Source: Secundilactobacillus malefermentans DSM 5705 = KCTC 3548
GTDB taxonomy: Bacteria; Bacillota; Bacilli; Lactobacillales; Lactobacillaceae
Reading direction: 5' to 3'
Assembly (NCBI RefSeq): GCF_001436395.1
Contig: NZ_AZGJ01000001.1
Span: 1-64,000, forward strand
Length of the DNA stretch: 64,000 bases
This document shows, one piece after another, positions 1,733 through 56,999 of this stretch; positions within the stretch are counted from its first letter, which is position 1; every line of letters starts with the position of its first letter. A program made the translations under genes and the position numbers. The notes beneath the pieces were generated by a model, which ran no database searches, was not told where the DNA came from, and saw only the letters and a program-made list of their open reading frames with translations.

Positions 1733-2785
1733 ATGACAATGAAGCGAATTTCCAAAGGTAAATTTGAACGCATGAATCGATTAAGTACGGAAAATGGCAT
1801 TATTAATGCACTGGCACTTGATCAACGAGGCTCAATCGTTAAAATGATCAAATCTGGTACGGAGCGAAACGGCAAACGATTTAATATGGATTTGGTTTAT
1901 GACTTTAAAAAATTAGTTGCGCAAGAATTAAGTACTGAAGCGTCAGCAATGTTGATTGACGAAGAGATGGGTTTTAAAGCAATCGAAGCTAAGGATTCAA
2001 ACACCGGCCTTATCATGTCGTACGAGCAAACTGGGTATGACGTTGATACACCTGGCAGGTTGCCCCGATTTATTGAAAATCAATCTGCTCAAATGATGGT
2101 TCGGAAGGGTGCGGATGCATTAAAAGTGCTTTTGTACTTTAATCCTAACGATCCGGCAGAAATTCAAGCCACCAAGAAAGCGTTTGTCGAGCGGTATGGA
2201 ACCGAAGCTGCGGCTGCGGACATTCCAACCTTTTTGGAAATTATTACCTATGACGATAAGATTGGTGGCAGCAAGTCTCGCGAATTTGCAAAAGCAAAGC
2301 CAGAGCTTGTTTTACGTTCCATCTCTGAATTCACAAAGCCACAGTATCACGTCGACGTTTTGAAGCTGGAAGTGCCGTTCAATCCAGATTATGTTGCTGG
2401 TTTAACGGATGCTAACGTTGACCCGGTCTATGAAGAAAAGGACGCAAAGGACTACCTCCATCAAATGAAGGGACTCGTCACTCGGCCATACATTTTCTTA
2501 AGTGCCGGTGTGCCAACGCCCGTTTTCCAAAAGGAATTACAACTTGCGTCAGAAGCTGATTCAGGATTTTCAGGAGTGCTCAGTGGGCGAGCAACCTGGA
2601 TTGAAGGAATTGATGTTTACTTAAATGAGGGCGCTGACGGACTGACAAAGTGGTTGGATTCCAAAGGGAAGCAGAATATTCACGATTTAGCTTCCATTCT
2701 TAGTGAAGGTGCAAAGCCTTGGTACAGCGTCTATGGTGGCTTAGAAAATATTGATGTATTTGATGCTAAAACGGTAATCGATTAA
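1733..2785 (+). CDS. lacD: Tagatose-1,6-bisphosphate aldolase (LacD family)
   Basis: Class I Schiff-base aldolase of the LacD/DeoC-like family, which splits tagatose 1,6-bisphosphate into dihydroxyacetone phosphate and glyceraldehyde 3-phosphate; family members also accept related ketose bisphosphates. The 350-residue protein opens with the family signature ISKGKFERM and ALALDQRGS. Lys in DALKVLLYFNP and Lys in VDVLKLEVPFN match the two conserved lysines of streptococcal LacD, the second being the Schiff-base residue by family knowledge. Start ATG 1733 has AGGAG at 1721-1725. No other lac or gat genes (lacA, lacB, lacC, PTS) are adjacent, so the pathway role is uncertain; the gene stands alone with its own promoter. 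Confidence 0.82.
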   Translation: MTMKRISKGKFERMNRLSTENGIINALALDQRGSIVKMIKSGTERNGKRFNMDLVYDFKKLVAQELSTEASAMLIDEEMGFKAIEAKDSNTGLIMSYEQTGYDVDTPGRLPRFIENQSAQMMVRKGADALKVLLYFNPNDPAEIQATKKAFVERYGTEAAAADIPTFLEIITYDDKIGGSKSREFAKAKPELVLRSISEFTKPQYHVDVLKLEVPFNPDYVAGLTDANVDPVYEEKDAKDYLHQMKGLVTRPYIFLSAGVPTPVFQKELQLASEADSGFSGVLSGRATWIEGIDVYLNEGADGLTKWLDSKGKQNIHDLASILSEGAKPWYSVYGGLENIDVFDAKTVID

Positions 2786-2813
2786 AAATGTTTGGGGGAT
2801 TTGCCACGATATA

Positions 2814-2841
2814 TTGCATTTTGCCACTCGGATGGTACAAT
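2814..2841 (+). promoter_or_regulatory. Promoter of the deoxynucleoside kinase gene
   Basis: TTGCAT (2814-2819), a 16-base spacer, TACAAT (2836-2841), in the 92-base gap before the kinase gene. AAAGGAGAG follows just before its ATG. Confidence 0.5.
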
Positions 2842-2877
2842 ATATTGTGTTGAATTTAATCTAAAGGAGAGACCCCC

Positions 2878-3510
2878 ATGCTTGTATTATCTGGAACGAT
2901 CGGGGCTGGTAAAACCAGTCTTACTAATTTATTAGCGACACATTTACACAAACCTGCATTTTATGAATCCGTAGATGACAATGAAATTTTGCCATTATTT
3001 TACAAGGATCCGAAAAAATACGCCTTTTTGCTACAAATTTACTTTTTAAATAAGCGATTGGATAGCATTAAGAAAGCCGCTTCTGATGACCGCAGCATCT
3101 TAGATCGTTCTATTTTTGAGGATTCACTCCTGTTCCATTTGAATGCAGACTTAGGTCGGGCAACTAACACTGAAGTATCAATCTATGATTCACTCCTAAG
3201 CAACATGATGGAGGAATTACCGGAAGATACCCATAAGAAAAATCCTGATTTATTGATTCACATCAACATCTCGTTTGATACCATGTTGAAGAGAATTAAA
3301 AAGCGCGGACGTTCTTATGAGCAAGTTGACCAAGATCCCAGCTTATTCGAATATTATAAAGAATTAGATGAACGCTATAGTGACTGGTACGAAAACTACG
3401 ATAAGTCAGATAAAATTCAAATTGATGGCGATAAGTATGATTTCGTGGAAAATCCAGGCGCACGTGGGCAAGTGCTTCAGCTAATCGATCAAAAAATTGC
3501 AACTCTGTAA
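2878..3510 (+). CDS. Deoxynucleoside kinase (deoxyadenosine/deoxyguanosine kinase family)
   Basis: Cytosolic P-loop kinase of the dNK family that phosphorylates deoxynucleosides for nucleotide salvage. The 210-residue protein has Walker A GTIGAGKT at residues 6-13, the DRS element in ILDRSIFED typical of dNK and thymidine kinase 2-like enzymes, and an arginine-rich lid near KRIKKRGR. Length matches the bacterial dAK/dGK/dCK subunits. Which base is preferred cannot be read from the sequence; lactobacilli often have paired dAK and dGK genes, but here there is a single copy. AAAGGAGAG precedes ATG 2878. The serS T-box follows directly. Confidence 0.85.
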   Translation: MLVLSGTIGAGKTSLTNLLATHLHKPAFYESVDDNEILPLFYKDPKKYAFLLQIYFLNKRLDSIKKAASDDRSILDRSIFEDSLLFHLNADLGRATNTEVSIYDSLLSNMMEELPEDTHKKNPDLLIHINISFDTMLKRIKKRGRSYEQVDQDPSLFEYYKELDERYSDWYENYDKSDKIQIDGDKYDFVENPGARGQVLQLIDQKIATL

Positions 3511-3514
3511 TTAT

Positions 3515-3543
3515 TTGAGAAAAATTATTAAATAGCGTATGAT
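3515..3543 (+). promoter_or_regulatory. Promoter of the serS T-box transcript
   Basis: TTGAGA (3515-3520), an exact 17-base spacer, TATGAT (3538-3543), immediately upstream of the T-box leader. Confidence 0.7.
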
Positions 3544-3554
3544 ACAGGTAATTA

Positions 3555-3760
3555 TTAAACGCGATGTACCTAAGTAGAGTGTTAAGAGAGATAGTGGCCG
3601 GTGTGAACTATTAGACTCGAATTCCAGTACGTTAATGCGGGCAGGTAATGCTGCACGGTGAAAGCCGTTATTTTCATGAGTGTATAGGTAAGCTTTATCT
3701 ATGAACTTGGGTGGTACCGCGAAGACCTTCGTCCCAATATCTGGGAGAAGGTCTTTTTTG
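3555..3760 (+). promoter_or_regulatory. T-box riboswitch controlling serS (tRNA-Ser)
   Basis: The leader holds the invariant T-box sequence TGGTACCGCG (3712-3721), an AGAGA-type stem I element near 3585-3591, and a terminator made of AAGACCTTC (3722-3730) pairing with GAAGGTCTT (3747-3755), with CCC/GGG inside and a six-T run. By family knowledge, uncharged tRNA pairs with the T-box and prevents the terminator. GAA at 3619-3621 is followed by T and TCC (3623-3625), a Ser codon that fits the specifier; the exact specifier is inferred. The downstream gene is serS, as expected. Confidence 0.93.
3722..3760 (+). terminator. Conditional terminator of the serS T-box
   Basis: Nine-base stem AAGACCTTC/GAAGGTCTT followed by TTTTTT. 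The T-box sequence overlaps the 5' arm, as in other T-box attenuators. Confidence 0.9.
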
Positions 3761-3793
3761 ATACCTAAAAATAAATGAAAAGAGGAAATAAGG

Positions 3794-6130: not shown

Positions 6131-6147
6131 TAATGATAAAAAGTTAG

Positions 6148-6178
6148 AAAGCACTGGTCTTTTAGGCCGGTGCTTTTT
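6148..6178 (+). terminator. Rho-independent terminator after the tRNA cluster
   Basis: AAAGCACTGGTC pairs with GGCCGGTGCTTT with two G-T pairs, followed by a T run, 17 bases after the tRNA-Pro gene. Confidence 0.9.
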
Positions 6179-6209
6179 GATTGTCCAGAAATGAACAGGT
6201 AAAACAAAT

Positions 6210-6223
6210 TGAAAACGCTTTAT
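6210..6223 (+). promoter_or_regulatory. cre-like site (CcpA) upstream of pyruvate oxidase
   Basis: TGAAAACGCTTTAT matches 12 of 14 positions of the consensus TGWAANCGNTNWCA. It lies about 175 bases upstream of the inferred promoter, so its activity is uncertain. Confidence 0.4.
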
Positions 6224-6251
6224 TAACGGTATTTTGAATCTAAAACCGATT

Positions 6252-6273
6252 TTTGTGAAAAAATAATCACAAA
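6252..6273 (+). repeat. Inverted repeat, possible operator upstream of pyruvate oxidase
   Basis: TTTGTGA (6252-6258) and TCACAAA (6267-6273) form a perfect 7-base inverted repeat with an 8-base AT-only spacer. It resembles the half-sites of Rex or CRP/FNR-type regulators but the spacing is two bases too long for the textbook sites. Function unknown. Confidence 0.55.
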
Positions 6274-6383
6274 GGGAAACCTAAAGTTACACTAGCCAAC
6301 CAATTTGCTTACAATTTGGTGTGAAGTGGTGAAACCCTTATATATCATGCCTTATTAGCCTACTTATTTGGTCAAATAGTGAT

Positions 6384-6411
6384 TTGACTTTGAAATATTG
6401 AGAACTATACT
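6384..6411 (+). promoter_or_regulatory. Promoter of the pyruvate oxidase locus
   Basis: TTGACT (6384-6389), 16-base spacer, TATACT (6406-6411). Transcription from about 6418 would give a leader of roughly 180 bases. The 6131-6595 gap otherwise holds only the terminator, inverted repeat and cre-like sites listed separately. Confidence 0.6.
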
Positions 6412-6437
6412 AAGATTTGTAATTGAGTTTGTGAAAG

Positions 6438-6451
6438 TTAAACCGCTTTCA
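6438..6451 (+). promoter_or_regulatory. cre site (CcpA) overlapping the early pox transcript
   Basis: TTAAACCGCTTTCA matches 13 of 14 positions of TGWAANCGNTNWCA. It lies about 20-33 bases downstream of the inferred transcription start, a position where CcpA usually blocks transcription. Pyruvate oxidase genes of lactobacilli are known CcpA targets. Confidence 0.65.
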
Positions 6452-6543
6452 AAACGGTTGCTCTTTACAATTCGACGAACTAATTAACAATGTTTGAAAC
6501 GATCCACAACAAACCCCACCTTCAGTATTTTTAAAACAAATTA

Positions 6544-6557
6544 TGAAAGCGATTTAA
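6544..6557 (+). promoter_or_regulatory. cre-like site (CcpA) near the pox ribosome site
   Basis: TGAAAGCGATTTAA matches 13 of 14 consensus positions, 39 bases before the ATG. Together with 6438-6451 it makes catabolite control of this locus likely. Confidence 0.5.
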
Positions 6558-6595
6558 TTGTCCACGTTTTAAATAATTGCAAGGAGGAAATTTTC

Positions 6596-8341
6596 ATGGC
6601 AGATAAAATTAGTGGCTCAGATGCAGTCCTCAAAGTCATTTAAGACTGGGGCGTTAATCACATTTACGGGTTACCAGGTGGCTCATTTGATTCAACAATG
6701 AACGCTATCCATAATCAAAAAGATCATTTCAATTATATCCAGGTACGTCACGAAGAGGCTGGTGCTATTGCAGCTTCTGCAGATTATAAGTACACAGGCA
6801 AAATTGGTGTCTGCTTCGGTTCAGCTGGCCCTGGTGCCGTTCATTTGATGAATGGTTTATACGATGCAAAGATTGACCGTATTCCATTATTGGCAATCGT
6901 TGCTCAAGTTCCTACATCTCGCATGAACATGGATTTCTTCCAAGCTACTGATGAAGAGCCAATGTTTGATGATGTTTCTGTTTGGAACAGAACCGCTATG
7001 ACTGCAGAAAGTCTTCCACAAATGGCTGACGAAGCAATTCGTCAAGCATATGAGAAGAAGGGTGTCGCTGTTTTGACCATTCCTAAGGACTTAGGCTGGG
7101 CAGAAATTGATGATACTTACGTTTCAAATGCTAAGTCACAAGTTACGCCTCTTTATCCAGACCCAACTCCAGAAAGTGTTTCTGAAGCAACTAAGTTAAT
7201 CAAAGATGCAAAATCACCAATGATTTACTTTGGTTTAGGTGCCAAAGATTCAGAAGAAGAATTAAAGGCTGTTTCAGAAAAATTCCACATGCCTCTTGTT
7301 TCTTCAGTACTAGCAAAGGGTATCTTGGATGAAGATTATCCAGCATACTTAGGGTCAACCGGACGTGTTGCTCCTAAACCAGGTTCAGAAGCTGGATTCA
7401 GTACTGACTTAATTCTTTGGGTTGGTAACGATTCTCCATTTAGTATCTTCCTATTCAATAAGAAAGCTAAAGTTATTCAAATTGATATTGAAAGCGAAAA
7501 ATTAGGCAAACGTCGCTCAGCTGATGTTGCTATGTTGACTGACTCAAAGAAGGCCTTGAAGGCAATTCTTGATGCCGGTGAAGACAAACCAGCTTCAGAC
7601 TTCTACAATGCATATATTGCTAACAAGAAGAACTGGACTGAATGGCAAGACAGCTTCAAAGACAGCGATGAGAGTCCTGTTCGTCCAGAACCAATCTTTG
7701 ACGTTATTAACAAGACTGCTAGCGATAAGGCCGTATTCAGTGTTGATGTCGGTAACGTTAACATCAACTTCGAACGTCTAATTGATATGCACAGTGACCA
7801 AAAGTGGAGTACTTCAGGTAAGTACGCAACTATGGGCTGGGGTGTTCCAGCATCTATTGCTGCCAAAGTTAACTATCCAGACCGCGACGTTTACAGTCTA
7901 AGTGGTGATGGTGGTTTCGCAATGCTTACGGAAGAAATCTTAACTCAGGTTAAGTATAATTTACACATCGTGAACGTTGTCTTCAGTAACTCAACTTTAG
8001 GTTACATTGAAGCAGAACAACGTGACGATACTCACCAACCACAATCAGGTACTGAAATTGCTGATACCGACTGGGCAAAGGTTGCTGAAGGTTTAGGTGC
8101 CGTTAGCTTTACTGCTCGCAACAAGGCTGAGTTCCAGAAGGCTATTGATGAAGCTGCTAAGACTGACAAGCCAGTTGTTATTGACGTCAAATTAACACAC
8201 AAGATGCCATTTACTACTGAGCACATGTTTATCGACCCATCATGGCAAGATAAGAAACAAGTCGATGAGTTTGTTAAAACATATGATGCACAAGCTTTGA
8301 AGCCATTAAGCTACTTCTTGAAGCAAGCTGCAGCTAAATAA
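6596..8341 (+). pseudogene. Pyruvate oxidase gene interrupted by in-frame TAA at codon 16
   Basis: Pyruvate oxidase (ThDP- and FAD-dependent) turns pyruvate, phosphate and O2 into acetyl phosphate, CO2 and H2O2. The frame from ATG 6596, behind a strong AAGGAGG, reads MADKISGSDAVLKVI, then TAA (6641-6643), then DWGVNHIYGLPGGSF and on without further damage to 8341. The stop sits where the aligned Glu of L. plantarum pyruvate oxidase is (IKVLEAWGV), so one G-to-T change of GAA explains it. Catalytic Glu (residue 53 in RHEEAGA) and the ThDP motif LSGDGGF...FSN are intact. Restart is possible only at ATG 6698 (547 residues), which has no Shine-Dalgarno sequence and would lose the first 34 residues of the pyrimidine-binding domain. 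Readthrough or a sequencing error remain possible. Confidence 0.85.
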
Positions 8342-8370
8342 CAATCGATTAAAATGATGATTGTACCCGG

Positions 8371-8410
8371 GAAAGTTGAATTTTCGTTTTGGAAATTCAG
8401 CTTTTCTATT
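8371..8410 (+). terminator. Probable terminator after pyruvate oxidase
   Basis: AAAGTTGAATTT (8372-8383) pairs with AAATTCAGCTTT (8393-8404) with one G-T pair, followed by TTCTATT. The T run is short, so readthrough into the downstream FAD synthase gene is possible. Confidence 0.6.
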
Positions 8411-8438
8411 ACATAAAATTAATTTGGGAGGGATAAAG

Positions 8439-9311
8439 ATGCAAGTTGACTACTTGAGTGATGATGAAACCTTAAAAGGTCAAACTAAACCAGAGACAGT
8501 TCTCGTACTTGGCTTTTTTGACGGCGTCCATCGTGGCCATCAACACGTTATTCAAACAGCACGCAAATTGGCCAATAAATATCACTTACCGTTATCCGTG
8601 ATGACGTTTGATCAGCATCCTTCCCAAATTTTTAAAACAGCATCTTCCGAAAACTTTAGGTATCTGAATACGGTCGACCAAAAAGTTACGCAAATGGAAA
8701 AGAACAAGGTTGATTGCTTATACATTACGAAGTTCACGAAAAAATTTGCAAGCCTATCACCCCAGCAATTTGTTGATCAATACATTGTGCAGTTAAATGC
8801 CAAACTGGTCGTGGTTGGATTTGATTACACGTTTGGGGCGGGTGCTAGCGCAACGGGCGATGACTTAAGAGGCTATTCTCATCAGCAGTTTGATGTGAAA
8901 GTGGTGCATAAATTGACGCATACGGATGTGAAAGTGAGCTCAACTCGAATTAGAGCGTTGATCAAGGCTGGTAAAGTTGAACTGGCAAACACCTTGTTAG
9001 GATATAAATATGAGACAAATGGTCGGCTAATCAAGACTCCAGATGGTCAATATGGCATTGAATTAACGAACTCATTGCAGCAAATTCCGACCGCTGGTAG
9101 GTTTGAGTGTCAGATGCTGTACGGCAAACGACCGCTGTCGGTGTTTGTGGAAATTAGCGCTAAGGACGGCCTCCTAATCATTAAGAATCAAAAAATGGTA
9201 GACGCCATCAACGTGAAGCAAAATCAATTAGTGAGTCTTAAATGGTTGAAATTAATTTCTGAAAGTTCAGCGATGACTCGTCGTCAGCATTTGTTTGAAA
9301 TATCAAATTAA
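8439..9311 (+). CDS. FAD synthase (RibF-like paralogue with degenerate riboflavin kinase domain)
   Basis: RibF-family protein. The N-terminal nucleotidyltransferase domain is well kept: GFFDGVHRGHQHVI holds the HxGH-like adenylation motif, and VSSTRIRALI is the conserved RibF segment. This domain adenylates FMN to FAD. The C-terminal part lacks the flavokinase signature (normally a GDxxGRxxGFPTAN element): here the matching stretch reads NGRLIKTPDGQYGIELTN. So the protein is probably an FAD synthetase only, or a paralogue with another role. Start ATG 8439 is set by GGGAGGG at 8426-8432. At 290 residues it is shorter than usual RibF. It lies just downstream of an FAD-dependent pyruvate oxidase, suggesting FAD supply; a separate full-length ribF is expected elsewhere. 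Confidence 0.78.
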   Translation: MQVDYLSDDETLKGQTKPETVLVLGFFDGVHRGHQHVIQTARKLANKYHLPLSVMTFDQHPSQIFKTASSENFRYLNTVDQKVTQMEKNKVDCLYITKFTKKFASLSPQQFVDQYIVQLNAKLVVVGFDYTFGAGASATGDDLRGYSHQQFDVKVVHKLTHTDVKVSSTRIRALIKAGKVELANTLLGYKYETNGRLIKTPDGQYGIELTNSLQQIPTAGRFECQMLYGKRPLSVFVEISAKDGLLIIKNQKMVDAINVKQNQLVSLKWLKLISESSAMTRRQHLFEISN

Positions 9312-9330
9312 GACGATTATATATAGAAGA

Positions 9331-9375
9331 AAGACAAACTTTTTTGGGTTCACTCAAGAAATGGTTTGTCTTTTT
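9331..9375 (+). terminator. Rho-independent terminator after the FAD synthase gene
   Basis: AAAGACAAAC (9331-9340) pairs with GTTTGTCTTT (9364-9373), followed by Ts. Confidence 0.85.
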
Positions 9376-9405
9376 AATTGTCGGTTAAATTTCAGTCCTA
9401 TTTCT

Positions 9406-52714: not shown

Positions 52715-56999
<4,285 letters not shown>

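Follow-up and report, generated by a model that had tools for sequence, protein, structure and literature searches.

The window, which is the whole 64,000-nucleotide stretch of DNA that was analyzed, comes from a food-type relative of Lactobacillus and carries an array of eight tRNA genes and, between the tRNA-Pro gene of that array and ctsR, a 3.3-kb segment containing an interrupted pyruvate oxidase frame and an intact FAD-synthetase-like gene (Table 1). The oxidase frame runs from its ATG to a terminal TAA at positions 8339-8341 and comprises 582 codons including that stop, with AAGGAGGAAATTTTCATG lying just 5' of the start at position 6596. A preliminary description of the locus had taken this ATG, behind AAGGAGG, as the start of a frame that is whole except for one TAA, and the translation, which contains a single internal stop, bears this out.

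Table 1. Features of the interrupted pyruvate oxidase locus (positions in the window)
Feature	Position	Strand	Basis or remark
tRNA-Pro(cgg), last of the eight-tRNA array, left edge of the segment	6057..6130	+	ARAGORN, Rfam
3.3-kb segment with oxidase frame and FAD-synthetase-like gene	6135..9403	+	blastn collinearity breaks relative to G008
cre-like site ATGAAAGCGATTTAA	6543..6557	+	motif scan, consensus matched at 14/15; candidate regulatory site only
Shine-Dalgarno AGGAGG and start codon ATG 6596	6584..6598	+	sequence
Interrupted pyruvate oxidase (pox/spxB) frame	6596..8341	+	581 codons plus stop; translation and profile matches
Premature stop TAA, codon 16	6641..6643	+	CAA/CAG or GAA/GAG in relatives
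First in-frame start codon after the premature stop, ATG, codon 35	6698..6700	+	nearest Shine-Dalgarno-like string about 16 nt upstream
FAD-synthetase-like gene (RibF N-terminal domain), intact	8439..9311	+	PF06574, E 2.9e-48

The 565 sense codons that follow the premature stop match the TIGR02720 pyruvate oxidase profile (pyruv_oxi_spxB) over the length of the family with 857 bits, against a curated equivalog cutoff of 638 bits. The N-terminal (PF02776), central (PF00205), and C-terminal (PF02775) domains of ThDP enzymes occur in order and all exceed their gathering cutoffs, and the nearest solved structures are those of the Lactiplantibacillus plantarum pyruvate oxidase (1POW and 1POX; E of about 4e-158). 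By profile and domains, the frame is of the TIGR02720 pyruvate oxidase type, and an FAD- and ThDP-dependent oxidation of pyruvate that forms acetyl phosphate and H2O2 is predicted. Similarity to the L. plantarum enzyme and to TIGR02720 extends in full from codon 17 to the end, whereas the frame itself is not uninterrupted, and the TAA at codon 16 should block protein synthesis here. At the composition of the window, 565 codons free of stops would occur by chance with a probability of about 7e-18.

Codon use in the frame is that of a highly expressed gene, in agreement with the preliminary description. When the window's presumed genes for ribosomal proteins and EF-G are taken as the reference, the oxidase frame has a codon adaptation of 0.73, within the 0.60 to 0.78 that the reference genes themselves score; most other genes in the window score 0.38 to 0.61, and rpoB and rpoC score 0.67 to 0.68. 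In the motif scan that located the cre-like site, most relatives of the oxidase gene also had cre-like sites upstream.

Three members of the same genus (G008, G005, and G007) have the same tRNA array, but in all three the slot is empty and tRNA-Pro is followed directly by ctsR. Relative to G008, whose CtsR is 93% identical to that of the window, blastn collinearity is lost at about position 6134 and regained at about position 9404. G007 has its own oxidase copy on a different contig. With the slot empty in these genomes, the oxidase gene is classed, from sequence comparison, as accessory, and the simplest reading is that the oxidase and FAD-synthetase-like pair was acquired at the tRNA-Pro/ctsR slot in the lineage of the window. 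Integration by duplication of the tRNA end was rejected because a repeat of the tRNA-Pro 3' end was looked for beyond the segment and not found, and a phage or viral context was rejected because no related contig was present among the viral contigs searched. In G008 (C75), the same array is split between tRNA-Arg and tRNA-Pro by an insert of about 1.8 kb (about 1790 to 3640 of the fetched stretch) that by eye contains seemingly truncated carA/carB-like carbamoyl-phosphate synthetase genes. The stretch from 3530 to 3780 of the window, before serS, resembles a T-box leader by eye (GGGTGGTACCGCG plus a terminator); Rfam reported no T-box there at the gathering threshold.

The FAD-synthetase-like gene encodes a RibF N-terminal domain and no recognizable flavokinase domain. 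Genes of this kind adjoin this pyruvate oxidase clade in several genera and on plasmid NZ_CP113927.1 and were detected near 23 of 34 other oxidase loci within the fetched flanks, which were mostly 1.5 kb; in G002 (C121) and G009 (C5), the gene lies downstream of the oxidase on the same strand. The plasmid, from Ligilactobacillus acidipiscis, carries a pyruvate oxidase followed on one strand by a gene annotated as an "FAD synthetase family protein", and it also bears riboflavin genes. In contrast, the pair in the window is chromosomal and located beside a tRNA array, and its oxidase is broken. The FAD-synthetase-like protein is possibly a dedicated cofactor supplier for pyruvate oxidase, an FAD enzyme; a literature search for such a pair in lactobacilli found no relevant paper.

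At the position of the premature stop, all 32 intact relatives have a sense codon, which specifies Glu in 23 of them and Gln in the other 9. Among intact copies within the genus, the one with the highest identity (G002, 80%) has CAA, as does G122, a copy from outside the genus that is 79% identical, and GAA is found in G007, another member of the genus. Because the protein tree places the gene in a polytomy, the ancestral codon could have specified either residue. The Glu that had been expected here is a possible ancestral state, but the occurrence of Gln, including CAA in G002 and G122, makes a change from GAA to TAA, which is a transversion, just one of two options, the other being CAA to TAA, a C-to-T transition.

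The frame contains no second stop and no frameshift. Stops alone place an upper bound of about 0.04 to 0.05 substitutions per site on neutral divergence since the loss, and the bound drops to about 0.012 if the indel rate is taken as 10% of that of substitutions. Because one stop and zero frameshifts limit neutral divergence in this way, either the loss would be recent or the base is wrong. Comparison of the oxidase of the window's genome (G000) with its relatives gave pN of 0.13 to 0.16 and pS of 0.61 to 0.74, which resembles pairs of intact genes, a coarse comparison in that synonymous sites are near saturation. This uniform purifying pattern and the lack of further disruption support the earlier proposal of a recent single-base change in an otherwise whole gene.

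Broken oxidase frames are found in 4 of the 58 family genomes with an oxidase copy at least 64% identical; one is G000, and the others (G363, G371, and G279) have frameshifts, some of which could be sequencing errors, that of G363 lying in a run of A. G009 (C5) has lost the promoter and the first 209 codons of the oxidase: about 700 bases are deleted at a short homology resembling TTTAC, and near position 52841 the cre/promoter region is joined directly to codon 210. Independent breaks occur in at least four relatives, and the oxidase gene appears to be prone to loss. Elsewhere in G000, of which about 477 kb was read in stretches, one in-frame TAG (C61:37502) interrupts a ThrE-type threonine/serine exporter gene at a codon that specifies Asp or Asn in relatives; both halves match PF06738. 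This second interruption is better explained by ordinary decay of genes, or by base errors scattered over the assembly, than by tolerance of UAA.

The genome contains two more intact pyruvate-oxidase-type genes, one a TIGR02720 pyruvate oxidase of 583 amino acids (787 bits; C76) and the other a related gene of 575 amino acids that is 39% identical (C61). The paralogues are diverged from the interrupted copy (47% protein identity), the site is single copy, and no second intact copy of the interrupted gene was found. Because of the intact paralogues, loss of the interrupted copy would be tolerable, and the pathway to H2O2 and acetyl phosphate would not necessarily be removed by it. The preliminary description had held that the loss takes away a main route to these products, which does not follow given the two paralogues.

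The interrupted frame is likely to reflect a recent nonsense inactivation of the accessory pyruvate oxidase, in nature or in culture. The starting state would have been a functional, probably highly expressed accessory oxidase, with the FAD-synthetase-like gene in the segment beside tRNA-Pro. One base substitution would then recently have turned codon 16 into TAA, such that ribosomes starting at position 6596 should halt after 15 residues and the interrupted copy should yield no functional oxidase, with the remaining pyruvate-oxidase-type genes of the genome staying intact. Against inactivation, a gene so strongly adapted in its codons would usually be kept. Nothing suggests a new mechanism beyond ordinary gene loss.

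The main rival to nonsense inactivation is a sequencing or assembly error, in which the true base would give a sense codon and the gene would be intact. The assembly is a draft of 152 contigs, all other features of the oxidase gene look functional, and the second single-stop gene in the same assembly, that of the ThrE type, would also fit scattered base errors. However, consensus errors in finished sequence are more rarely substitutions than indels, and no frameshift is present in the frame or obvious among its neighbors. Cross-assembly is unlikely at a single-copy site whose paralogues are so diverged. Bacterial genomes commonly carry genuine nonsense losses, and an error at this base is judged improbable, if still worth serious consideration.

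Some active enzyme could also be made despite the stop if translation reinitiated at the ATG of codon 35, giving a shortened product of 547 residues. The Met at this codon is invariant in all relatives compared, termination would occur 54 nt upstream, and the 547-residue product scores 817 bits with TIGR02720. However, the nearest Shine-Dalgarno-like string, AGGTGG, is too far upstream for an efficient start, and the product would lack codons 1 to 34, including the motif G25-x-P27-G28-G29-S30-x-D32-S33, which is invariant in 33 of 33 rows. The stretch with GxPGGSxDS belongs to the N-terminal ThDP-binding domain (PF02776) and has a conservation of 0.88, compared with 0.80 for the rest of the protein. 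Reinitiation, which the preliminary description had offered as a way of tolerating the change, is very unlikely to yield an active enzyme without a well-spaced Shine-Dalgarno sequence and this invariant part of the domain.

Readthrough, the other form of tolerance suggested earlier, would produce the full-length enzyme by means of a suppressor tRNA or a leaky context and would fit the perfectly kept downstream frame. It is just as hard to credit. None of the 25 tRNA loci recovered from the draft has a UUA, CUA, or UCA anticodon, in a set that is incomplete and from which such a tRNA could be missing. The window is filled with standard table-11 genes, and the ThrE-type gene is interrupted by TAG, so that an ochre suppressor would not explain both stops and nothing ochre-specific is indicated. 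Conserved recoding was rejected, as position 16 is a sense codon in all relatives compared; the TAA codons of the G007 copy and of the C76 paralogue are their normal terminal stops. That the stop is real and tolerated, with some full-length oxidase made by readthrough and H2O2 formation naturally attenuated by the TAA, is scarcely credible.

Inactivation of the oxidase by a nonsense change resembles losses of spxB in Streptococcus pneumoniae, in which the gene for an H2O2-forming pyruvate oxidase is inactivated by one substitution and the cell tolerates the loss. Pneumococci selected under levofloxacin acquired spxB mutations at the start codon (M1T) and at Q456, and the evolved populations no longer produced H2O2 (PMC10865975); a missense change in spxB is common to pneumococcal laboratory stocks (PMC9927508). 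The pneumococcal cases differ in genus and in arising under experimental selection, whereas paralogues exist in the genome described here. A literature search for this oxidase pseudogene found no relevant paper. If the strain is the species reference, automated annotation will show a truncated or pseudo pox. The interrupted frame would add another case to the independent losses of H2O2-forming pyruvate oxidases among lactobacilli, a group in which the presence of the gene would be an unsafe predictor of peroxide formation.
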